This document shows, in pieces, positions 32,875-42,400 of a stretch of 64,000 nt of DNA. Within the stretch, counting starts at the first letter, position 1; every line of letters begins with the position of its first letter. The position numbers and the translations under genes were made by a program. The DNA is taken from the NCBI GenBank assembly GCA_902614055.1, contig CACMJX010000001.1, positions 253,189 through 317,188 of the forward strand, in the 5' to 3' direction. Origin of the DNA: an uncultured Pelagibacteraceae bacterium (GTDB taxonomy: Bacteria; Pseudomonadota; Alphaproteobacteria; Pelagibacterales; Pelagibacteraceae). The notes beneath the pieces are model-generated. The model searched no databases. It was not told where the DNA came from and was given only the letters and a program-made list of their open reading frames with translations.

Positions 32875-33678
32875 ATGGATAGCAATCTAATAATTAAAAA
32901 TAATGAATTTCCAAAGTTTTTGAACCAACTAGCAATTGATTTAACAAATTTTTATTTTAAAAAACTTAATAAGCCTTTTAAAGTTAATAATAAATTACTT
33001 GGCAAAGGATATGACCCTGTTACTACATGCGATAAAGCTTTTGAAAAATTCATTAGAGCAAAGATAGGCAAAAAATTTCCTGGTCATGAAATTATTGGAG
33101 AAGAATTTGGTTACAAAAAAACTAAAAGTGATTTTAGTTGGGTAATTGATCCCATAGATGGAACCAGGTCATTTGTCATAGGAAGTCCTACTTGGAGTAA
33201 CTTAATATCAGTAAATTACAAAAGCAATCCAATATTTGGTTTGGCAAACTTCCCAATGTTAAACAAATATTATTATAATCAATCTTCAAAAATTGCATAT
33301 GTTGTTGAAAATAAAAAAAGAAAACAAATATCAGTCAACAAGAATGTTAAATTTAAAGATATCAAATTAACTGCTGGTTTTCATGGAGCTATTTCTTTAT
33401 ATAAACAAAAAAAAATTCCAAAACTTCTTAAATTAATACAATTTCCTTGTTCAGATGCATTATCATATGCTCAGATATGTGAAGGTAGAATTGATGTTGT
33501 CATACAATGTAATAATAAAATTTGGGACATTCATCCACTAATACCAATTATTAATGCTGCTGGTGGTATTGTAACAACTTGGGACAATCAAAATGCAAAA
33601 CAGGCAGGACATGTATTGGTATCATCCAATAAAACAATTCATAAAAAAATATTAGGTTTGCTAAAACCCGTCGTTTAA
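32875..33678 (+). CDS. Inositol-monophosphatase-family phosphatase, HisN-like
   Basis: A magnesium-dependent phosphatase, probably histidinol phosphatase. It has metal ligands in IGEEFG, the signature WVIDPIDGTRSFVIGSP near residue 88 and the C-terminal WDIHPLIPIINAAGG with the third aspartate. The short length of 267 residues and the TRSF variant after the aspartate motif are typical of HisN. The gene sits with a glutamine amidotransferase and other unrelated genes rather than in a histidine operon. Inositol or sugar phosphates are alternative substrates. Confidence 0.82.
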   Translation: MDSNLIIKNNEFPKFLNQLAIDLTNFYFKKLNKPFKVNNKLLGKGYDPVTTCDKAFEKFIRAKIGKKFPGHEIIGEEFGYKKTKSDFSWVIDPIDGTRSFVIGSPTWSNLISVNYKSNPIFGLANFPMLNKYYYNQSSKIAYVVENKKRKQISVNKNVKFKDIKLTAGFHGAISLYKQKKIPKLLKLIQFPCSDALSYAQICEGRIDVVIQCNNKIWDIHPLIPIINAAGGIVTTWDNQNAKQAGHVLVSSNKTIHKKILGLLKPVV

Positions 33679-33680
33679 TA

Positions 33681-34412
33681 ATGGAAATTCTTGTTCTTCA
33701 ACACATTAAAATTGAAGATCCCGGTTATATAAAAGATTTAATGATCAAAGATGGAGTTAATATTAGAACAATTGAATTAGATGAAGGTGAAAAAATTCCA
33801 AATAATCTAAATTTTTTTGACGGAATGCTATGTATGGGCGGACCTATGGATACATGGATGGAAAAGGATTATCCTTGGCTTATAGATGAAAAAAATAAAA
33901 TTAAAGAGTTTGTTGTAGAATTAAATAAGCCATACTTAGGTTTTTGTCTAGGATGTCAATTGCTAGGAGAAGTAATTGGAGGAAAAGTAGTTAAAACTAA
34001 TAATCCAGAAATTGGAATGATGGATATAAATTTTTTGGATGAAAAAAAGAAAGATATACTTTTTGCAGATTTTCCAGAAAAAATTACATCATTACAATGG
34101 CACTCTTATGAAGTTAAAGAATTAGAAAAAAATAAAGATGTAACATTAATTGCTTCATCAAAAGAGACAAAATATCAGATATTTAGATATAAAAATAGTG
34201 CTTATGGTATCCAATTCCACATAGAGATTAAGGATACAACAGTAAATGATTGGGGGTGCGTACCTGAGTATAAAGCATCTTTAGAAAACCAATTAGGACA
34301 AGGTGCGCTAGAAAAATTTGATAAAGAAGCTAAAGAAAATATGCAAGATATGAATAATTATTCAAAAATTTTGTATACAAAATTTAAGAGTGATATCATA
34401 AACAAAAAATAG
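33681..34412 (+). CDS. Class I glutamine amidotransferase domain protein
   Basis: A stand-alone class I glutamine amidotransferase-like enzyme. It has the nucleophile cysteine in YLGFCLGCQLLGEVIGG near residue 93 and the histidine-glutamate pair in QFHIEIKD near residue 180. These three residues form the expected triad. Length is 243 residues. Family members hydrolyse glutamine or gamma-glutamyl compounds, or act with an unknown synthetase. It starts two bases after the HisN-like gene and is followed by an AhpD-like gene. Confidence 0.82.
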   Translation: MEILVLQHIKIEDPGYIKDLMIKDGVNIRTIELDEGEKIPNNLNFFDGMLCMGGPMDTWMEKDYPWLIDEKNKIKEFVVELNKPYLGFCLGCQLLGEVIGGKVVKTNNPEIGMMDINFLDEKKKDILFADFPEKITSLQWHSYEVKELEKNKDVTLIASSKETKYQIFRYKNSAYGIQFHIEIKDTTVNDWGCVPEYKASLENQLGQGALEKFDKEAKENMQDMNNYSKILYTKFKSDIINKK

Positions 34413-34423
34413 GAGGAAATAAG

Positions 34424-34810
34424 ATGTTCAAACCAATTGAAGAAAAAGATGCAACTGGCAAAGTAAAAGAAATTTTTGATGAAATAAAAGAAGCTCGACA
34501 AATAACTGAAATTCCGAATTTTTGGAAAACTATGGCTAATAGTCCAGAAACATTAGAAAGAACTTGGAGATCATTACAACAAGTAATGGGAAAAGGTGAA
34601 TTAGATCCTGCTGTAAAGGAGCTTATTTATGTTGCAGTTTCAATTACTAACAATTGTGAATATTGTATCAAATCTCATTCCTTAGCAGCCAGAAAAAAAG
34701 GTGCAACAGATGGAATGATAAACGAAATGATCGCAATAGTTGGAATGGCAAATGAAACAAATCGTTTAGTTGAAGGTTATCAAGTAGAGGTAGATAACTT
34801 TTTAAAATAA
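34424..34810 (+). CDS. Carboxymuconolactone decarboxylase/AhpD-like protein
   Basis: A small CMD-family protein with the alkylhydroperoxidase-type active site CEYCIKSHS near residue 78, in which the two cysteines and histidine of AhpD are kept. It probably handles peroxide or another redox substrate in the cytoplasm. Length is 128 residues. A strong AGGAGGAAA ribosome-binding site precedes it, suggesting good expression. Neighbours do not define its partner. Confidence 0.85.
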   Translation: MFKPIEEKDATGKVKEIFDEIKEARQITEIPNFWKTMANSPETLERTWRSLQQVMGKGELDPAVKELIYVAVSITNNCEYCIKSHSLAARKKGATDGMINEMIAIVGMANETNRLVEGYQVEVDNFLK

Positions 34811-34811
34811 A

Positions 34812-35156
34812 ATGAATTTCGATTTTGTCTACAAGATATGCACAAAATCAGAGTGGAGTAATGCAAAACAAAATAATATCTTTAAAGGCACTACATTAGA
34901 TTTAAAAGATGGTTATATTCATTTTTCAGACAAAGATCAGATCAAGCAAACACTAAATAAGTTTTATGTTAATCAAACTAATTTAATAATTCTTAAAGTG
35001 GATGCTCTAAAATTAAAAAATCTGGTTTGGGAGCAATCAACTGATGGCAACATGTTTCCACATTTATACTCAGATCTAAATTTAGATTTTGTAGTTAAAG
35101 AATATATGATCAATTTAAAAGATGACGGTAAGCATGATCTGCCAGATGAACTTTAA
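34812..35156 (+). CDS. DUF952-family protein
   Basis: A small protein of unknown function. The sequence FVYKICTKSEWSNAKQN, DGYIHFSDKDQI and FPHLYSDLNLDFVV are characteristic of DUF952. It starts one base after the AhpD-like gene and closes the plus-strand cluster that begins at 32875. Length is 114 residues, typical for the family. Confidence 0.85.
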   Translation: MNFDFVYKICTKSEWSNAKQNNIFKGTTLDLKDGYIHFSDKDQIKQTLNKFYVNQTNLIILKVDALKLKNLVWEQSTDGNMFPHLYSDLNLDFVVKEYMINLKDDGKHDLPDEL

Positions 35157-35159
35157 TAT

Positions 35160-35498
35160 TTAATTTGATTTTCCTACTAAATTAACAATTAAAACTCCAG
35201 ATATAATTAGTATTAGACCTATAATTGTAAAAAAGTCAGGAATTTGATTAAATTTATAAATTCCCACAATAGAAGTAGCTATTATACATAAGCCTGCAAA
35301 TGAAGCATATGTTACGCCAACAGGAATAGTTTTCATAACTAAGGATAGTGTATACATACATGCAACTATTGTTATTGCTGTAAAGACACTTGGTAAAAAT
35401 ATTGTAAAACCATTTGCAGCTTTGGCAAAACCATTTGATGCTGTACCAAGAGCAACTGCAATAATTAAGATTATATAAGCTGTTATATTACTCATCAA
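35160..35498 (-). CDS. SMR-family small membrane transporter lacking the conserved Glu14
   Basis: A four-helix membrane protein of 112 residues with the small multidrug resistance pattern, including GFAKAANGFTIF near residue 22 and a final NLVGKSN. In EmrE, Glu14 binds drug and proton. By alignment from the conserved K-x-x-x-GF block, the corresponding residue here is glycine, with no acidic residue in helix 1. It may be a non-drug transporter or half of a heteromer. It lies downstream of the small-protein operon and could share its transcript. A paralogue is at 63381. Confidence 0.8.
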   Translation of the reverse strand: MMSNITAYIILIIAVALGTASNGFAKAANGFTIFLPSVFTAITIVACMYTLSLVMKTIPVGVTYASFAGLCIIATSIVGIYKFNQIPDFFTIIGLILIISGVLIVNLVGKSN

Positions 35499-35540
35499 TT
35501 AAGAATAATATTATCTAAAATTAATATCTATAAAATTATA

Positions 35541-36038
35541 TTATTCAATAATAATTGGCCCAACCATTCCAGTTTCATAATGACCCGGAATATTACACGC
35601 CATTTCTAAAGAAATATCTTTTGAAAACTTCCAAATAATTTCTCCTGTTTTATTTGGCTCTAGCATTACACTATTTGCGTGTTTATGGCCTAATGAGTGA
35701 TCTTTTTTAGACATTTCTTTCATTTTTTTATGATCAATACGGTCGCCTAAAAGAATATCGTGTTCAATTAATCTTGCCATTTCGGGTTGGTGATCAATAT
35801 GCATCTTTTTAGTGCCAATATTATATTCATGTACCAGTTCACCTAAATTTTTAACAATTATTTTTACTGTTTCCCCTTTTTTAACTTGAATTGAACTTGG
35901 CTCATAATAATTGTCATACATCTTTACTTCTATTACTCTAGTAACATCCTTTGGATCACCCTTAGACCCAATCATCTTCATTGAAGCTGCATTAGAATTA
36001 AAGGCGATAAAAATAAATAAAAGTATAAGTTTTTTCAT
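35541..36038 (-). CDS. Secreted cupredoxin with a His/Met-rich insertion
   Basis: An exported cupredoxin-like copper protein. A signal peptide spans residues 1-17, ending SNA. The likely copper ligands are the histidine in LVHEYNIG near residue 78, Cys and His in ACNIPGHYE, and Met in TGMVGP. Between the first ligand and the C-terminal strands lies an insertion of about 50 residues rich in histidine, methionine and acidic residues, for example DHKKMKEMSKKDHSLGHKH. Length is 165 residues. It is the last of twelve tightly spaced genes; its start overlaps the preceding stop by one base. A copper storage or delivery role is inferred. Confidence 0.84.
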   Translation of the reverse strand: MKKLILLFIFIAFNSNAASMKMIGSKGDPKDVTRVIEVKMYDNYYEPSSIQVKKGETVKIIVKNLGELVHEYNIGTKKMHIDHQPEMARLIEHDILLGDRIDHKKMKEMSKKDHSLGHKHANSVMLEPNKTGEIIWKFSKDISLEMACNIPGHYETGMVGPIIIE

Positions 36039-36358
36039 TATTTAGGCATTGGTGTTGCGCCAGTCTCTAAACTCATGATTTTTCCATTATCATATTTGTA
36101 GACTGCCATTACTGCTTCAGTGTTTCCATCATCAAATGTTACAAATGCGTGGTGTACACCCACTTCGTCATTTTCATATACAACTCTTGTATCTCTTTGA
36201 TTAATATCACCGCTCATCGCCCATTTGATCACTTCAGCTTTACCTAAAGTATTTCCTGATTTATGCATTGTAAATTTGAAATCGTCATGCAAAAGTTCAT
36301 TCATAGCTGCTTCATCTTTATTTTTTAATGCAGCACTATATTTTTCTAATATTGACAT
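36038..36358 (-). CDS. SnoaL-like/NTF2-fold small protein
   Basis: A 106-residue NTF2-like protein beginning MSILEKYSAALKNKDEAAM and ending LETGATPMPK. It is clearly paralogous to the protein at 39126, with shared start MSILEK, middle YENDE and end LETGAT-x-x-PK. The fold gives a small hydrophobic pocket that could bind or isomerise a ligand. A strong AAGGAGATAAG ribosome-binding site precedes ATG. It belongs to the minus-strand small-protein operon. Confidence 0.8.
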   Translation of the reverse strand: MSILEKYSAALKNKDEAAMNELLHDDFKFTMHKSGNTLGKAEVIKWAMSGDINQRDTRVVYENDEVGVHHAFVTFDDGNTEAVMAVYKYDNGKIMSLETGATPMPK

Positions 36359-36381
36359 TCTTATCTCCTTTTTTAATATTT

Positions 36382-36669
36382 TTATATTCCTTCAACAATT
36401 ATAGAATTTGACACAGCATTATCATGTCTTATCTGTCTAATTGGTTTGTATTCATCCGAGTTATACCATTCCATCGCTTTTTCTTTTGATTGAAATTTAA
36501 TCACGATAGATCTAGGATTATTCCATTCACCCTCAATAACTGTCATCTCTCCACCTCTAACTAAGTACTCTCCGCCAAATTTTTCAACTATAGACTTAAC
36601 TTTTGTGACATATTCTTTATAGTTATCGGGATTGTTGACCTTAATACTCGATAATACATAAGCACTCAT
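36382..36669 (-). CDS. DUF1330-family dimeric alpha-beta barrel protein
   Basis: A 95-residue protein with the DUF1330 pattern: AYVLSSIKVNNPDNYKEYV at the N-terminus, then GGEYLVRGGE and NPRSIVIKF, and AMEWYNSDEYKPIRQIR toward the end. Such proteins dimerise into a ferredoxin-like alpha-beta barrel; function is unknown. A GGAGTAA ribosome-binding site is present. It sits in the same operon as several related-fold proteins. Confidence 0.85.
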   Translation of the reverse strand: MSAYVLSSIKVNNPDNYKEYVTKVKSIVEKFGGEYLVRGGEMTVIEGEWNNPRSIVIKFQSKEKAMEWYNSDEYKPIRQIRHDNAVSNSIIVEGI

Positions 36670-36701
36670 AATTTACTCCTTTTTTTAAAATAAATTATAT
36701 A

Positions 36702-37025
36702 TTATTCAGCAGGCTTGACGACTGTTTTTGCAGCACTGGCAGCATTACTGAAAGCTTTATTGTAATCTATTACTTCATGGACCATTAAATCATCCATAAG
36801 TCCAGAATTTTTAAAAGCTATCTTTAATGCAACGGCTTGTTCGTATTCCCCTTCAACACAAGAGATTACATCAAATCTACCTCTAACCCACTCGTAAGAA
36901 ATAAGCTTTAAACCAGCTGCTTCTGTTACCTTTTTTGTAGAAGCAAATCTGTCTGCTGTTGGTTCGTTCTGCATTCTCTTCATTAGTTCTCCACTTATCT
37001 TGCCTATTAAGTAAAATTTTGCCAT
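36702..37025 (-). CDS. GYD-domain-like small protein
   Basis: A 107-residue protein starting MAKFYLIGKISGELMKRM, with YEWVRGRFDVISCVEGEYEQAVAL in its middle. That resembles the GYD or related ferredoxin-like families. I prefer the start at 37025 because a longer in-frame start at 37037 would overlap the preceding gene. Function is unknown. It is one of six small alpha-beta proteins in this operon. Confidence 0.72.
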   Translation of the reverse strand: MAKFYLIGKISGELMKRMQNEPTADRFASTKKVTEAAGLKLISYEWVRGRFDVISCVEGEYEQAVALKIAFKNSGLMDDLMVHEVIDYNKAFSNAASAAKTVVKPAE

Positions 37026-37026
37026 A

Positions 37027-37317
37027 TTACATTTCAACCTTAGTCAAGTCCCAAGCAGTCATCTTGATAACACATTCATCATATATTTCCTTTCCAACTG
37101 GATGTGTACCAGATATTAGTTCTTTCATTTTTTCCATATTATGAACAAATACCTTAAACATTACGCCACTTTTATCTGGCTTTACTGCTCCTATAGTTTT
37201 TTCTGGATGAGCTGCTGATTTTCTTACACTCATACCCTCATCTGATTGCATCCATCCCATAAATTTTTCAAGTTTTCCTTCTTTCAAATCTACGATCACT
37301 AAAACTTCTTTTTCCAT
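37027..37317 (-). CDS. Small alpha-beta barrel-like protein of unknown function
   Basis: A 96-residue protein starting EKEVLVIVDLKEGKLEKFM with an alternating beta-alpha pattern similar in length to antibiotic-biosynthesis-monooxygenase-like proteins. No family-specific motif is recognised. A very strong AGGAGGAAAAA ribosome-binding site precedes ATG. Its position in the small-protein operon and similar size to its neighbours suggest a related fold, which is inference. Confidence 0.65.
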   Translation of the reverse strand: MEKEVLVIVDLKEGKLEKFMGWMQSDEGMSVRKSAAHPEKTIGAVKPDKSGVMFKVFVHNMEKMKELISGTHPVGKEIYDECVIKMTAWDLTKVEM

Positions 37318-37326
37318 TTTTTCCTC

Positions 37327-37614
37327 CTATTTGTTAAAATCGAAAACTTCTTCTTTAACCTCAGTAAATTGGTGAGGTTCAAAAAAATCATTCATCTGAG
37401 TAAGCTGTTCATTAATAGCATCAGTACTTTCTGCCATCCAATGACAAAACATTGTCATAGTATCACCTGGAGTGTAATATGTCATTTGGCATTTAGCTTT
37501 ATCGCTAGTGGAAGATTTAATCATATCTTCTCTGGACATGCCTCCTAAAACCTCGTTAAATTTGTCTTTCATTTCTTTAGATTTAAAAGTGTGAGTTACC
37601 ATATAATATTTCAT
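37327..37614 (-). CDS. Small protein of unknown function in the small-protein operon
   Basis: A 95-residue protein beginning MKYYMVTHTFKSKEMKDKF, with methionine-rich centre TPGDTMTMFCHWMAESTD and an acidic C-terminus. The alternating strands and helices fit a dimeric alpha-beta barrel fold, but I do not recognise a family. A strong AAAGGAGAAA ribosome-binding site is present. The methionines and a Cys-His pair could bind metal, though this is speculative. Confidence 0.65.
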   Translation of the reverse strand: MKYYMVTHTFKSKEMKDKFNEVLGGMSREDMIKSSTSDKAKCQMTYYTPGDTMTMFCHWMAESTDAINEQLTQMNDFFEPHQFTEVKEEVFDFNK

Positions 37615-37667
37615 TTTTTTCTCCTTTTTTTTATTTCGTATTTTAAATCAATCTTATGATTATTCAA

Positions 37668-38150
37668 TTATTTCATTAAAGAATATCCACCTTTAAAATA
37701 AATTGATGAGGCAAATTTATTTTCTTGGGCTGAGTTAATTGGTGTGTACCCTGTTGAGCCACTACATTCTATTCCTTTATATTTTCCTGTTCCCCCTAAA
37801 CATTTAAATGTACCATTCATTGAGTCTCCAAGTGGAATTTCGTAGTATGTAAAAATAGTATCCCCATCCATTTGATTTATTTTACAGTGTCCCATTTCAA
37901 ATCCCTTTCCTGGGATTGTACCTGCGCCAATGCAATATTGTGAAGCATTATCCATGAATGTTGTACCTTCGACTGCCATTAATCCTCCAACTCCATCGTA
38001 AGTAAAAGTTAAAAAGTTACCCTCGTTATCAGTAAGAAATTTGTTATCTCCAACAATAAAACCTTTAAGATCAATTTTTCCTTTATGACCGTCTGCAAAA
38101 CTTGATGTTGTAAATATTAAAAACAACATAATTACATATATTTTTTTCAT
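37668..38150 (-). CDS. Secreted protein with four cysteines, possibly AOC-like barrel
   Basis: An exported protein of 160 residues with a signal peptide to residue 19 (SSFA|DGHKG). The mature part contains four cysteines, in QYCIGAG, MGHCKIN, TFKCLGG and GIECSGS, which could make two disulfides. The block CLGGTGKYKGIECSGSTGY resembles the glycine-rich turn of allene-oxide-cyclase-like/dirigent barrels. Function is unknown. It is one of two exported proteins in the small-protein operon. Confidence 0.7.
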   Translation of the reverse strand: MKKIYVIMLFLIFTTSSFADGHKGKIDLKGFIVGDNKFLTDNEGNFLTFTYDGVGGLMAVEGTTFMDNASQYCIGAGTIPGKGFEMGHCKINQMDGDTIFTYYEIPLGDSMNGTFKCLGGTGKYKGIECSGSTGYTPINSAQENKFASSIYFKGGYSLMK

Positions 38151-38158
38151 TATTAGAA

Positions 38159-38452
38159 TTATCCTTTGTGGTTCATTACAGATTCATCAGTCATCATGGT
38201 CATTTTAGATTGGTCCATTATTACTCCAGAATCTATTCTTGCTTGAGTTAGTTCTGCATCTCCACCAAAACCTTTTAAGCCCTCGGGTGATTCAAAATGA
38301 ATAACTACAGTCATAGCATTATCATCTTCTTTATCTGCACCTGCAAAAGCTATAGTCATTCCATACTTTTTAAGTTTCTCACTATTTGCAAGCATCATTT
38401 CCTTCCAAGAATTAAAACCTTTTGAGAGTTTTTGTTCTATTTTTACAAACAT
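38159..38452 (-). CDS. Small alpha-beta protein, YCII/DABB-like
   Basis: A 97-residue protein starting MFVKIEQKLSKGFNSWKEM, with MTIAFAGADKEDDNAMTVVIHF giving two strands. The pattern and length fit dimeric alpha-beta barrel proteins, but no exact family is recognised. A strong AAAGGAGATATA ribosome-binding site is present. It lies eight bases before the start of the secreted protein gene. Confidence 0.65.
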   Translation of the reverse strand: MFVKIEQKLSKGFNSWKEMMLANSEKLKKYGMTIAFAGADKEDDNAMTVVIHFESPEGLKGFGGDAELTQARIDSGVIMDQSKMTMMTDESVMNHKG

Positions 38453-38477
38453 AATATATCTCCTTTTTTTTGCTAAT

Positions 38478-38747
38478 TTAATCTGAGCAAACGCTCATTA
38501 CTGTTGTCTCTTGTTTATGACCAGATTCCGCAATTACTTTAGCATTCTCTGGATTCTGCATAAATTTTTGCATAGTGTCTGCTGCTGGTGTTTCCATCAC
38601 AATATGTACTTTATTTGGATTTTCTATTTCATTACCTACGTAAATAGTTTTAATACCTGCTGCTTCCCTAGGACCAGAGTGCTCATCAAACATTTTTTTC
38701 CAGTGAGCCCAGTCTTTTACTTCAAAGTTACCAACCATTTTTACCAT
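38478..38747 (-). CDS. Small alpha-beta protein of the ABM/DUF3764-like type
   Basis: An 89-residue protein starting MVKMVGNFEVKDWAHWKKMF, with SGPREAAGIKTIYVG and KVHIVMETPAADTMQKFM. It is similar in pattern to small stress-responsive dimeric alpha-beta barrel proteins. The start at 38747 is chosen because it has a GGGGAGAA ribosome-binding site and follows the cupin stop; a longer in-frame start would overlap the cupin gene. Function is unknown. Confidence 0.7.
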   Translation of the reverse strand: MVKMVGNFEVKDWAHWKKMFDEHSGPREAAGIKTIYVGNEIENPNKVHIVMETPAADTMQKFMQNPENAKVIAESGHKQETTVMSVCSD

Positions 38748-38748
38748 T

Positions 38749-39099
38749 TTATTCTCCCCAAACCCCGGCAAACTCATATGCTTCAACAGGTTCATTGCCA
38801 ACTACCCAAGCGTCATGACCTGGTGTTACGGAGTAAGAATCTCCTGCTTTATATGTAACCTCTGTTCCATCATCGTGTTTTGCACAAACAGATCCCTTTG
38901 TGATAATTCCAATATGGTTTGCCTGACAACTGTCAGTTCCAATATGTGGCTTAACATCTGTAGACCATTTCCATCCTGGTTTTAAATGTAATCTAACTAC
39001 TCTTTGACCGCCTACTTTAACTGCTTCTATTTTAGCATTATTAAACTTATCAACTACCTCATCTGCTTTATCAAAGGTTTTAACTTCAATACTACTCAT
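38749..39099 (-). CDS. Small cupin-domain protein
   Basis: A 116-residue single-cupin protein. It has the core pattern HIGIITKGSVCAKHDDGTEV and AGDSYSVTPGHDAWVVGNEP, with a preceding H in VKPHIGTDSC. Metal-ligand histidines are partly replaced, so metal use is uncertain. A GGAG ribosome-binding site lies upstream. It belongs to the small-protein operon between NTF2-like and alpha-beta proteins. Confidence 0.82.
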   Translation of the reverse strand: MSSIEVKTFDKADEVVDKFNNAKIEAVKVGGQRVVRLHLKPGWKWSTDVKPHIGTDSCQANHIGIITKGSVCAKHDDGTEVTYKAGDSYSVTPGHDAWVVGNEPVEAYEFAGVWGE

Positions 39100-39125
39100 A
39101 TTAAACTCCTTCTGTTAGTTTATAA

Positions 39126-39455
39126 TTATTTTGGTATTTTGGTTGCGCCTGTTTCGAGTTCAATGATTTTACCATCTTTAAATTTCCAATAACACATTAA
39201 AGCCTCTTTATTTCCATCTTCGGCATAAGTAACAATAGAATGATCAAAACCTATTTCATCGTTTTCATATAAAATTCTATATTTATCAACTTTCATGAAA
39301 CCTTTGTTAATTGCTTCAATCATACCTGTTTTTCCACTTTCAGTATAGGCTCCCTGAAGATGAGAATATCTCTTATAATCATCATGAATAATCTCAGCTG
39401 CTGCTGCACCATCTTTTTCCATGATTGCTTTATTAAGTTTTTCTAAAATTGACAT
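39126..39455 (-). CDS. SnoaL-like/NTF2-fold small protein, paralogue
   Basis: A 109-residue NTF2-like protein starting MSILEKLNKAIMEKDGAAAA and ending ELETGATKIPK, closely patterned on the protein at 36038. The pair shows a duplication within the operon, now separated by nine genes. The pocket residues differ between copies, so ligands may differ. It begins eight bases after the stop of the first gene of the operon. Confidence 0.8.
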   Translation of the reverse strand: MSILEKLNKAIMEKDGAAAAEIIHDDYKRYSHLQGAYTESGKTGMIEAINKGFMKVDKYRILYENDEIGFDHSIVTYAEDGNKEALMCYWKFKDGKIIELETGATKIPK

Positions 39456-39463
39456 ATTGTTCC

Positions 39464-39847
39464 TTACTTCTTCATTGCATTGAACATGCTAAGCGTATCA
39501 TCAAAAGTCATCATAACTTTAGTTTTTCCCTCATCACTTACTTCAAAATAGTGACCAAACATAGTATCCATGTTATCCGCAGTTGCATGAACTCTTGCAA
39601 AAACTTTATTTCCTTCACTTATCATATCTAAAACTTTTAAATGGAAATTTGGCCAAGTAGCTGGGATTTTAGACATTGCAGCCATCATAGCTTGTTTCCC
39701 TTTGTGAACTCCAGAAAGTGGATGTACACCTTCTTTACCTGGAAAAGTCCAAACGATTTCATCATCGATCATATCATTAAAAAATGTTTCCATATCTCCT
39801 GAACCAAATAGTTCATATGCTTTTTTAGTTTGCTCTTTTACGTCCAT
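39464..39847 (-). CDS. SnoaL-like/ketosteroid-isomerase-like protein, first gene of small-protein operon
   Basis: A 127-residue NTF2-like protein with AYELFGSGDMETFFNDMIDDEIVW and GVHKGKQAMMAAMSKIPATW, typical of SnoaL-like proteins that bind small hydrophobic ligands. It is the most upstream gene of the twelve-gene minus-strand run and is preceded by an AAAGGAGAAAC ribosome-binding site. The promoter probably lies in the 85-base gap up to cysK. Confidence 0.8.
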   Translation of the reverse strand: MDVKEQTKKAYELFGSGDMETFFNDMIDDEIVWTFPGKEGVHPLSGVHKGKQAMMAAMSKIPATWPNFHLKVLDMISEGNKVFARVHATADNMDTMFGHYFEVSDEGKTKVMMTFDDTLSMFNAMKK

Positions 39848-39932
39848 AGTTTCTCCTTTAAATTAATTGTTATATTAGAGTTTATTATATGATAGAAATG
39901 TAATGAATTTATTACAGTACTGCTATGCGTGA

Positions 39933-40934
39933 TTATATCCAGTGAGGATAGGGAAGACCTTTTTCTTTTAAAAAAGATTTATTGAACATCTTTGAGTTGT
40001 ATTTATCAGATTTATCACAAAGAATTGTGACAATCGTTTTACCTGGTCCTAAAAGTTTACCCAATCTTATTGCTCCAGCAATGTTCACTCCACAACTTGT
40101 ACCTAAACTTAAACCTTCTTTTTCAATTAAATCGAATAAAACAGGTAAAGACTCATGATCACTTATTGAAAATGCTCCATCAATACGTGCTTTTGCAAAA
40201 TTCGCAGTAACTCTACTAGATCCAATACCTTCAGTTATTGAACCACCTTCACTCTTTAATTCACCATTTTCAACGTAACTATATAGAGAGGAACCTGTTG
40301 GATCTGATAAATATATTTTAATATCTTTATTCTTTTCTTTTAAAAAACTACTTACACCTGCAATTGTACCACCAGTACCAGATGAACATACAAAACCATC
40401 TATTTTGCCATCAGTCTGTTCCCATATTTCTGGCCCTGTTGTTTCATAATGACCTTTAGAATTAGCAGTATTATCAAATTGATTAGCCCACACTACACCG
40501 TGATTGTTGCTACTTTTTAATTCATCAGCCAATCTTCCTGCATATTTAACAAAGTTATTTTCATCTTTATAAGGTTTTGGTGGAACCAACCTCAAATCAG
40601 CTCCAATATTTCTTAATAAATCTTTTTTTTCTTGTGTTTGATTATCATTCATTACGATAATAGTTTTATAACCAATAGAATTTCCTAATAGACATAACCC
40701 AATTCCGGTATTACCAGCAGTTCCTTCAACAATTGTTCCACCTTTTGAAATTAGTTTTTTTTCTTCAGCATCTCTTATTAATGCTAGAGCTGCTCTATCT
40801 TTAACAGAGCCTCCCGGATTAAGGTACTCTGCTTTTCCATAAATATTACAACCAGTAATTTCTGATGCGGCTTTTAATTTAAATAAAGGAGTGTTTCCTA
40901 TTGCTTCGACAAAATTATTTTGTAAAGTTTTCAT
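39933..40934 (-). CDS. cysK: Cysteine synthase (O-acetylserine sulfhydrylase family)
   Basis: A pyridoxal-phosphate enzyme that makes cysteine from O-acetylserine and sulfide. It has the PLP lysine in [15 protein letters not shown] near residue 45, the substrate loop [10 protein letters not shown], the glycine phosphate loop [11 protein letters not shown] and LSDPTGS. Length is 333 residues, slightly long, with a C-terminal extension. It overlaps cysE by four bases, which gives the two-step cysteine pathway in one unit. Confidence 0.9.
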
Positions 40935-41512
40935 ACATCAAGTTTTGTATCACCTCCTGGTGCAACACCATAGGGTTTAAATTCTTCTGATGCAGTTCCA
41001 ACATTTTTTGCAGGAATTCCAACCATTACTGCATTTTCTGGAACATCTTTTGTAACAACAGCATTAGCTCCAATTTTTGCATTTTTACCAACTACAACTG
41101 GCCCAAGTATTTGTGCACCAGATCCTACAACAACATTTTCTTTTAGAGTTGGGTGTCTCTTAACATTTCTTTGATCATCTGAATTTATACTTGGAGCAAT
41201 TCCGCCTAATGTTGCCATGTGATAGATGGTAACATTATCTCCAATATCAGATGTTTCCCCAATAACTACTCCCATGCCATGATCTATAAAAAGATTTTTA
41301 CCAATTTTAGCATTTGGATGGATTTCTATGCCTGTTAAAAATCTTGAGAACTGAGAAATTATTCTTGCAACAAGATGAAATTTTGCAATTGAAAAAAAAT
41401 TAGCAATTCTATGAAAAAACACAGCTTTAACACCAGGATAAGTTAGTATTAAACTCAACTTTGATCTTGCAGCAGGATCTCTTTTAATTATCGACTCTAA
41501 AAAATCATTCAT
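40931..41512 (-). CDS. cysE: Serine O-acetyltransferase
   Basis: The enzyme acetylates serine with acetyl-CoA to supply CysK. The protein has a helical N-terminal domain and a hexapeptide-repeat left-handed beta helix, with [20 protein letters not shown] and YHMATLGG containing the catalytic Asp-His pair, and [21 protein letters not shown]. Length of 193 residues fits the short EpsC/CysE type. It lies between the metallothionein-like gene and cysK, in the same direction. Confidence 0.92.
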
Positions 41513-41542
41513 GTTAATTTAAGATTAGTTATTAAAATTTAA

Positions 41543-41653
41543 CTACTTGTTACAACAGCAGTTTTCTGATGATGGTTTGCAATCACAGTTTTTACAAACG
41601 CATCTGTCACAAGAACAGTCTTTACATTTACAGTGTATATTATTGCATGCCAT
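41543..41653 (-). CDS. Metallothionein-like cysteine-rich peptide
   Basis: A 36-residue open frame on the minus strand, too short for usual gene calls. It holds twelve cysteines, at residues 3, 8, 10, 13, 15, 18, 20, 23, 25 and 32-34, arranged as C-x-C pairs and a final CCC, with one histidine at residue 7. This spacing is typical of metal-thiolate peptides binding Cu, Zn or Cd. It lies 30 bases upstream of cysE in the same direction and 54 bases after the persulfide-dioxygenase-like gene. No Shine-Dalgarno is seen; TATAAC-like sequence close to the ATG would give a leaderless or near-leaderless message. It does not match a known metallothionein class closely enough for me to name one. Confidence 0.75.
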   Translation of the reverse strand: MACNNIHCKCKDCSCDRCVCKNCDCKPSSENCCCNK

Positions 41654-41707
41654 AGGAGTTATATAATTGTATATTTTTTAAAAACAATACTAATAATACC
41701 CCTGATT

Positions 41708-42400
41708 TTAGAGTTCTTTAAGCGTTAATCCCTTTAGATTTGCAGGAACTGCAATATCCATCATTTTTGGATTGGCAAGATTAAGATTATCCATTATTTC
41801 AGCATATTCCTCTTTTGAGCTAACTTGTAATCTAGGATTATTACTTTTCTCACTACCAATTGTTGAATTTTTTTTTCCGTTATAATCATGAGCAGGATAA
41901 ACAAGTGTTTCTTCTGGAAGCTTTAATAGTTTGCCAAATAATGACTCATAAGCTTGATGAGCACTACCATTTTGAAAATCTGTTCTACCAGTACCGTTAA
42001 TTAAAAGAGTATCTCCTGTAAAAACTCTATCATTCATTAAGTAACTATATGAACAATCTGTATGACCTGGCGTATAAATGGCTTTAAGTTCAATATTCTC
42101 AATATTAATATTTTCATCATCTTTTAATTTAATATCAATAACTTCAGATTTTGAATTTTCTCCCATTATACGAACACAGTTCGTTCTCTGATTTAACTCG
42201 TTAAGACCTGTAACATGATCAGCATGTATGTGAGTATCAATGACCTTAACTAATTTGAGATCCAAACTTTTTAACATTTTAATATAGTCATCGGTATGTT
42301 CTATAACCGGATCAATTATTAGAGCTTCTCTGCCTTTTCCGCTTGAAATAATGTATGTATAAGTTGAGGATTTTTGATCAAATAGTTGGTTAAATATCAT
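41708..42400 (-). CDS. Metallo-beta-lactamase-fold persulfide dioxygenase-like protein (ETHE1 type)
   Basis: The protein oxidises glutathione persulfide to sulfite in the best-known family members. It has the metal motif THIHADHVTG near residue 56, TPGHTDCSYSYL, FTGDTLLINGTGRTDF with the bridging Asp, and PAHDYNG near residue 166. GRTDFQ and the Asn-Gly-Thr sequence distinguish ETHE1 from glyoxalase II. Length is 230 residues. Its position beside cysE, cysK and a metallothionein-like gene supports a sulfur-handling role. Confidence 0.85.
   Translation of the reverse strand: MIFNQLFDQKSSTYTYIISSGKGREALIIDPVIEHTDDYIKMLKSLDLKLVKVIDTHIHADHVTGLNELNQRTNCVRIMGENSKSEVIDIKLKDDENINIENIELKAIYTPGHTDCSYSYLMNDRVFTGDTLLINGTGRTDFQNGSAHQAYESLFGKLLKLPEETLVYPAHDYNGKKNSTIGSEKSNNPRLQVSSKEEYAEIMDNLNLANPKMMDIAVPANLKGLTLKEL

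Follow-up and report, generated by a model that had tools for sequence, protein, structure and literature searches.

What do twelve consecutive genes for small proteins do together in a marine bacterium, and do they belong together at all? We addressed this question for positions 35541-39847 of a 64,000-nucleotide stretch of DNA (hereafter the window) from an uncultured Pelagibacteraceae bacterium, where the minus strand carries twelve intact open reading frames (ORFs) of 89-165 amino acids (aa) each. An earlier reading made from the sequence alone (the sequence-only reading) had described them as running almost without gaps; indeed, 4122 of the 4307 bases are coding and the intergenic gaps measure -1 to 53 bases. 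The run begins 85 bases downstream of cysK and ends 42 bases upstream of an SMR transporter gene. Comparison with related genomes revealed that the twelve genes are the long form of a variable-length array, for which we tentatively propose a role as a modular protective operon handling reactive organic molecules.

For this comparison, named genomes were scanned with a profile of NTF2c, the protein encoded by gene 11. The best 80 of at least 465 confirmed stretches, all from Pelagibacteraceae, Pelagibacterales or Pelagibacter, were considered, and the 75 that carried both cysK and the right-hand flank gene were counted as loci, the other five being left out. Selection by closeness to the NTF2c profile biases this sample of 75 towards close relatives, and by construction NTF2c is present in 75/75. 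Array contents were counted on six-frame ORFs, except for L194-L199. The genes in transcript order, followed by the two boundaries of the array, are listed below with E values, bit scores against the family cut-off and the number of loci containing them.

39464-39847, minus strand: gene 1, SnoaL/NTF2-like, 127 aa; SnoaL_2 (PF12680) 2.1e-11, 44.8 bits against a gathering cut-off of 27; 60/75 loci
39126-39455, minus strand: gene 2 (NTF2b), NTF2-like and paralogous to gene 11, 109 aa; matches the NTF2c profile with 101.9 bits, SnoaL_2 (14.9 of 27) and DUF4440 (22.4 of 25.2) both below cut-off; 48/75 loci
38749-39099, minus strand: gene 3, cupin-like, 116 aa; Cupin_2 (PF07883) 4.6e-4, below cut-off (20.3 of 27.2); 24/75 loci
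38478-38747, minus strand: gene 4, DUF3764, 89 aa, with an ATG start 1 base after gene 3; PF12594 2.3e-10, over cut-off (40.9 against 24); 42/75 loci
38159-38452, minus strand: gene 5, DUF3764-like, 97 aa; PF12594 5.7e-5, 0.4 bit below cut-off (23.6 of 24); 26/75 loci
37668-38150, minus strand: gene 6, exported, predicted eight-stranded beta-barrel, 160 aa; signal peptide by eye, predicted structure, no Pfam match; 41/75 loci
37327-37614, minus strand: gene 7, SCO4226-like small barrel-type, 95 aa; SCO4226-like nickel-responsive family (PF14026) 5.3e-4, below cut-off (20.6 of 28.5); 12/75 loci
37027-37317, minus strand: gene 8, orphan family with a predicted ABM-like dimeric alpha-beta-barrel fold, 96 aa; structure model, no Pfam match of note; 74/75 loci
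36702-37025, minus strand: gene 9, GYD-like, 107 aa; PF08734 1.6e-5, below cut-off (25.2 of 31.4); 67/75 loci
36382-36669, minus strand: gene 10, DUF1330, 95 aa; PF07045 3.4e-31, over cut-off (107.9 against 23); 60/75 loci
36038-36358, minus strand: gene 11, NTF2c, SnoaL/NTF2-like core protein, 106 aa; SnoaL_2 6.5e-8, over cut-off (33.5 against 27)
35541-36038, minus strand: gene 12, exported CopI-like cupredoxin, 165 aa; Cupredoxin_1 over cut-off (33.9 against 27), CopI (NF051440) 5.7e-45, below its equivalog cut-off; 54/75 loci
39933-41512, minus strand: cysE-cysK, 5' boundary; NF007989 1.4e-155, TIGR01172 1.1e-63; cysE in 71/75 loci
35160-35498, minus strand: SMR-family transporter, 3' boundary; PF00893 4.7e-13; 74/75 loci

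The family names of genes scoring below their Pfam cut-offs are leads only. When the PDB was searched by sequence, the gene 7 profile matched nothing up to E 1, and the CopI-like and NTF2c profiles each gave a single weak, partial hit. With these reservations, the protein types recognized by the sequence-only reading (three NTF2-like proteins, six small barrel-type proteins, a cupin and an exported cupredoxin) stand, the barrel assignment of gene 8 resting on its predicted structure. DUF3764 (genes 4 and 5) had not been named there, and the exported protein 6, presented as a four-cysteine protein, has just two cysteines, C73 and C89, that are invariant in 18 sequences.

In the 75 loci, the array sits between cysK and SMR and contains from 3 to 12 members, and its order is nearly fixed, 26 of 4727 pairwise gene orders being inverted. 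The genes were thus found as a linked, ordered set in other Pelagibacterales, as the sequence-only reading had envisaged, and not scattered in related genomes. All twelve genes in the window's exact order, together with SMR, were present in 5/75 loci, while short forms consisted of genes 1-2-8-9-10-11-12 (six loci) or 1-8-9-10-11-12 (five loci). The 3' part, 8-9-10-NTF2c, was the most constant, and gain and loss occurred mainly between genes 1/2 and 8. Further families appeared in some loci, namely a DSBA-type protein (19/75), a small membrane protein (17/75), an exported two-cysteine protein (11/75) and a further exported family that looks 'EthD-like' by eye (13/75). The DSBA-type protein was found in 17 of the 21 loci without a CopI-like gene, near the same place. 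A mutual exclusion of genes 3 and 4 was considered and rejected, as 19/75 loci carry both (six-frame count). NTF2c itself was detected in 166 of 250 genomes of the genus (even sample) and in 30 of the 37 near-complete ones. In two genomes without NTF2c, in which about 1.5 kb of flank was covered, cysK was followed by genes for a two-cysteine protein, an SCO4226-like protein and a membrane protein (G853), or a two-cysteine protein, DUF1330 and a membrane protein (G073).

The strongest evidence that the array members work together is that the same fold types recur in a different order and place. In a second family of the same order (four genomes searched), clusters of the composition GYD-barrel-SnoaL-SCO4226-DUF3764 (L043) and GYD-SnoaL-cupin (L044) lay elsewhere in the genome; the third genome held a lone cupin relative and the fourth weak matches only. 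A survey of 289 genomes of the class detected protein 8 in just three, namely the window's, G696 and G901, and NTF2c (E 1e-10) in eight, the window's included. DUF3764 occurred in 1/398 sampled genomes of the phylum (the window's own) and was present in genomes outside that sample. In the order to which G696 belongs (the second order), presumably HIMB59, NTF2c was carried by 53 of 60 genomes and by 19 of the 20 near-complete ones. The grouping of HIMB59 with SAR11 is disputed (PMC10308909).

Linkage beyond Pelagibacterales rests on a small, chosen sample: 20 second-order regions around the best NTF2c copy, picked for variety of family and genus and not at random, and five regions from four genomes of other families. 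In 12/20 second-order regions, an array family lay directly upstream of NTF2c on the same strand, namely protein 8 alone (4), protein 8 then cupin (4), cupin (1) or DUF3764 (3). Two of the four protein 8-cupin regions contained one more small protein known from other Pelagibacter arrays. The homologue of gene 3 lay between protein 8 and NTF2c in G696 and G901, and homologues of gene 5 directly preceded NTF2c in L162, L163, L177 and L190, while in one further second-order region a relative of the array membrane protein was located downstream of NTF2c. These neighbourhoods are unlike the cysK locus and contain, for example, thyX or a permease and a peroxidase gene. Where DUF3764 was the partner (three regions), NTF2c was followed by an exported pseudoazurin-like cupredoxin of a family distinct from CopI (in L162, Pfam Copper-bind 6.7e-13 and NCBIfam pseudoazurin 2e-23, below its cut-off). 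A long peroxidase gene (PF00141), which we take to be KatG, was convergent with NTF2c or with the cupredoxin after it in 8/20 regions (L162, L163, L167, L168, L169, L175, L177 and L193). Second copies were also present: L170 and L171 carry an NTF2-barrel-DUF3764-like set with a divergent GYD-like gene, and L172:7600-15400 (G901) is a rearranged cluster of two SnoaL genes, DUF3764-like genes, ABM-type, ydhR-type and other small proteins and an AhpC/TSA peroxiredoxin, with an exported 156-aa protein that resembles gene 6 by eye only and has no Pfam match. Of the genomes from other families, G766 carries DUF3764-NTF2c in one region and, in a second, NTF2c with a divergently oriented gene of the exported 'EthD-like' type, and in G774 DUF1330 lies about 1 kb upstream of NTF2c with another gene between them. 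As genomes of the same family are not independent, few recurrence events were counted, the minimum comprising the protein 8/cupin combination, the DUF3764 pairing as seen in G766 and in the second order, and the second clusters of altered order. The NTF2c set behaves as a portable module. As a separate observation, in L161:1345-3376 (second order) NTF2c lies downstream of a rhodopsin gene (PF01036), presumably for proteorhodopsin, with an opposite-strand small gene between them, and a relative of the Pelagibacter-array membrane protein follows NTF2c.

The unusually strong ribosome-binding sites described in the sequence-only reading were confirmed. The median pairing energy with the anti-Shine-Dalgarno sequence was -8.4 kcal/mol for the 12 array genes versus -0.9 kcal/mol for 61 other ORFs of the window (Mann-Whitney p = 1.5e-4), the latter having been started at their first ATG and some possibly not being genes, which weakens their pairing. 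A clear site preceded ten of the twelve genes; the exceptions, gene 12 with no site and gene 9 with a weak site, each start within 1 base of the preceding gene. In comparisons with relatives, the median ratio of nonsynonymous to synonymous substitution rates (dN/dS) was 0.04-0.14 for genes 1, 3, 5, 8, 9, 10, 11 and 12 (at least five usable comparisons each); the values based on few comparisons were 0.19 for gene 2 (n = 2), 0.04 for gene 4 (n = 4), 0.23 for gene 6 (n = 1) and 0.04 for gene 7 (n = 4). The gene pairs came from ORF calling in which overlapping ORFs were lost, and only non-identical pairs of equal length with dS within 0.05-1.5 were used. Judged by these ratios, the array sequences are under purifying selection and the genes are real, beyond chance.

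The conservation and folds of the proteins were then considered. Fifteen diverse NTF2c-like sequences, gene 2 included, share the pattern R..[YF]EN[DN]..H..A..DG..ETGAT with few exceptions, and R58, E62, N63, H70, A82, G92 and T102 are invariant in them; the conserved polar residues suggest a working pocket. Protein 8 was predicted as a ferredoxin-like barrel monomer with a predicted local distance difference test (pLDDT) score of 94. The closest solved structures were ABM, NIPSNAP and OAC proteins (best 3gz7, Z 9.2, 86 residues, root-mean-square deviation (rmsd) 2.5), with YgiN also among the matches (Z 8.3), as well as ferredoxin-like folds such as ribosomal S6 (Z 7.4-8.0). Its general fold is clear from the model, function is not fixed by it, and the dimer is putative. 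Protein 6 was predicted as an eight-stranded barrel (pLDDT 84.6) matching best 2q03, an uncharacterised Shewanella protein (Z 14.3, 123 residues, rmsd 2.4), followed by the cyclase PloI4 (7x7z; Z 13.3, 132 residues, rmsd 3.8), dirigent proteins (Z about 12) and the pyocyanin demethylase PodA (Z 12.0, 117 residues, rmsd 2.7, 11% identity). Its predicted fold is that of the allene-oxide-cyclase (AOC)/dirigent/pyocyanin-demethylase-type barrel. The matched cyclases, oxygenases and demethylase need no cofactor. The sequence-only reading had found no catalytic enzyme of a known pathway, a statement that proved too strong, as the folds of the array include those of known cofactor-free enzymes.

Taken with less than even confidence, the reading that we prefer is that of a protective modular operon. 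The cytoplasmic NTF2-like proteins and dimeric alpha-beta barrels would be small, cofactor-free pocket proteins that capture or convert reactive organics, such as quinone-, aldehyde- or peroxide-type electrophiles or the oxidised aromatics of sunlit surface water. NTF2c would be the core, commonly produced together with protein 8 or DUF3764 as its barrel partner, and each optional gene would broaden the substrate range. The exported barrel (protein 6) and cupredoxin (protein 12), or a DSBA-type thiol protein in the cupredoxin's place, would form a periplasmic arm against the same stress, cysE-cysK would supply cysteine and the SMR pump may export products. It is possible, if rather doubtful, that an NTF2-like core with interchangeable dimeric-barrel and cupin partners is a cofactor-free complex representing an undescribed modular class in surface-ocean Alphaproteobacteria, with a substrate range tuned by gain and loss of partners in a fixed order and with periplasmic cupredoxin and beta-barrel arms. 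The protective reading was favoured because (i) it best accounts for what the array is made of, for its cupredoxin or DSBA-type partner, for the cysteine operon and for the nearby genes of peroxidase, peroxiredoxin and AhpD type (the latter two near the array in the window, a peroxidase gene beside NTF2c in the eight second-order regions); (ii) the nearly fixed order is combined with accordion-like content; (iii) the partner types of NTF2c reappear amid unrelated genes in a further family and in the second order, where L170, L171 and L172 also hold rearranged second clusters; (iv) two different cupredoxins occur downstream of NTF2c (CopI-like in 54/75 loci, pseudoazurin-like in 3/20 regions); and (v) the folds match cofactor-free cyclases, oxygenases and a demethylase and the ribosome-binding sites are strong. 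Several points weigh against it. Predicted folds do not fix chemistry, and proteins that merely bind would look alike; Pfam revealed no regulator among the twelve genes; NTF2c had no array partner in 7/20 second-order regions and stood alone in two of the four genomes of other families (G859 and G874); the peroxidase gene is convergent, not co-transcribed, and in five of its eight cases NTF2c was without an array partner; and linkage to cysE-cysK was observed in just one family of Pelagibacterales.

The same folds could instead serve a catabolic or tailoring pathway, in which successive cofactor-free enzymes (a monooxygenase, a cyclase, an isomerase and a dioxygenase-like cupin) process one particular substrate, whether aromatic, polyketide-like or a volatile carbon compound. 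Enzymes that tailor aromatic polyketides have SnoaL, ABM, cupin and AOC/dirigent folds; sets of these enzymes group SnoaL, SnoaB/ABM, OAC and dirigent/AbyU-type barrels and resemble the array in their mix of small cofactor-free folds, and the solved structures near proteins 8 and 6 include OAC, WhiE-ORFI, SnoaB, PloI4 and AbyU. However, pathways rarely survive the loss of as many steps as a content of 3 to 12 genes implies, the twelve genes include no dehydrogenase, CoA ligase or uptake system, and neither a ketosynthase nor an acyl carrier protein was found among the 20 proteins scanned at 32875-42400 (twelve array and eight flanking). The array also differs from polyketide sets in that the eight flanking proteins scanned include no polyketide synthase, and in its variable gene number and its streamlined oligotroph hosts, and we regard a pathway as unlikely. 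Abundant ligand buffers or carriers, binding small hydrophobic or sulfur compounds without converting them, would equally explain the pocket folds, the strong ribosome-binding sites, the cysteine-synthesis neighbourhood and the variable repertoire. Yet it is not obvious why buffers should require a cupredoxin and a barrel that are exported, and the invariant R58, E62, N63, H70 and T102 suit an active site, though a binding site could also account for them; we do not think this explanation likely. Nor does the interval between cysK and SMR look like a mere recombination hot spot that gathers unrelated small genes of similar folds and separate roles. Its content does vary at a fixed chromosomal place, where DSBA-type, DUF2798 and membrane-protein genes vary too, but the same families stand beside NTF2c in another order at other places, the order in the 75 loci is nearly fixed, and the twelve window genes share one strand, ten with a clear ribosome-binding site, all of which makes a hot spot quite improbable.

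An operon for copper tolerance built around the CopI-like cupredoxin appears very unlikely, although gene 12 offers good reasons to consider it. It scored 153.3 bits (E 5.7e-45) against NF051440, short of the equivalog cut-off of 280. Its H70, C148, H153 and M158, invariant in four sequences, correspond by analogy to type-1-like His-Cys-His-Met copper ligands, and residues 79-125 form an internal segment with seven His and five Met. CopI, as described in parts of PMC13308877, carries such a His/Met-rich segment (the comparison with gene 12 was made by description) and is implicated in copper tolerance. Gene 12 is thus like CopI (NF051440/NF047895) in being exported and in its putative ligands and His/Met-rich segment, and the CopI-like gene lies near NTF2c in 54/75 loci. 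It differs in its score, in lacking the N-terminal His-rich region that is variable among CopI proteins (no His before residue 70), and in belonging to an array without a copper pump among the flanking proteins scanned. The copper system that the sequence-only reading had named among other options is not supported: a purely copper-related function is unlikely because 21/75 loci are without the cupredoxin while NTF2c stays (17 of them with the DSBA-type protein), the eight flanking proteins scanned with Pfam include neither a copper ATPase nor a multicopper oxidase, and CopI homologues are also found elsewhere. Two such genes away from the array lie at L042:12564-13821 and L039:5214-5651; the one in L042 is divergent from a metallo-beta-lactamase-fold gene related to that at 41708-42400 of the window.

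A phage origin and a defence or toxin-immunity array were likewise rejected. Viral contigs held no relatives of NTF2c, DUF3764 or protein 8 in a scan relying on short conserved peptides, which distant relatives may escape, and PHROGs gave one weak match for genes 1-10 (gene 7, E 7e-4, family of unknown function). PADLOC yielded no convincing match, as 9/10 array proteins (all but genes 10 and 12 were scanned) had none at E 0.01 and gene 9 matched a cyclase model only in part (14.8 bits, E 0.003); no toxin gene was found by Pfam among the 20 proteins at 32875-42400, and the array is under apparent purifying selection.

A further feature was noticed upstream of gene 1:

39899-39916, strand not assigned: inverted repeat TGTAAT-N6-ATTACA, lying between cysK and gene 1; a possible operator or possible terminator of cysK

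This repeat has a single exact copy in 1.17 Mb of the window's genome. The exact form was present in 43/75 cysK-to-array stretches and absent from 32/75. G010 likewise has one exact copy upstream of the first array gene, and in L040 both arms are changed (TGTAAC-N6-GTTACA); G009 has no exact copy and the sole exact copy of G004 lies elsewhere. A search allowing one mismatch gave 2 matches in the window, and 18/100 shuffles did as well. The repeat may be a cysK terminator, because a T-run follows it; as a candidate operator or terminator, it was not used as main evidence. No known RNA element was found at the gathering threshold in the 30-45 kb part of the window. At 33681-35156, on the strand opposite to the array, genes for a glutamine amidotransferase, an AhpD-type protein and DUF952 flank it, and of these DUF952 was kept in 72/75 loci and the AhpD-type gene in 54/75. 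Two more DUF1330-like genes stand in tandem away from the array in the window's own genome (L050:5225-5857, G000:C13).

How does the array compare with systems already known? Quinone and aldehyde stress sets, such as the MhqR/YodB regulons and the quinol monooxygenase YgiN, bring small barrel, glyoxalase-type and thiol functions together, and the array resembles them in this combination. It differs from the MhqR/YodB regulons in having no regulator or flavin reductase by Pfam, and the sole computed link is the fold match of protein 8 to YgiN, the regulons having been compared by description. Protein 6 shares its predicted fold with PodA/AOC-like barrels, but its identity to PodA is low and it belongs to no Pfam family. 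In searches of an open-access library, titles and abstract openings showed no description of the array, in line with the remark of the sequence-only reading that no characterised system of this composition was known. A text search of PMC9040609 found no mention of SnoaL; sections of PMC12636525 deal with regions around a plastocyanin-like gene in coastal genomes and with cupredoxin neighbours and do not describe the array; and sections of PMC10734472 mention none of cysK, cupin, SnoaL and catalase. The individual folds are known and the chemistry is probably of a familiar kind; what appears undescribed is the ordered array of variable length together with its NTF2c core.

Recurrence in related and distant marine bacteria marks the array as a real, undescribed system. 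SAR11 genomes are among the smallest of free-living cells, and despite this some SAR11 devote up to twelve genes with strong ribosome-binding sites to the array, NTF2c being retained in 30/37 near-complete genomes of the genus and 19/20 of the second order. Its function would show which stress or compound outweighs genome streamlining in the surface ocean, and whether small cofactor-free proteins form an exchangeable toolkit.

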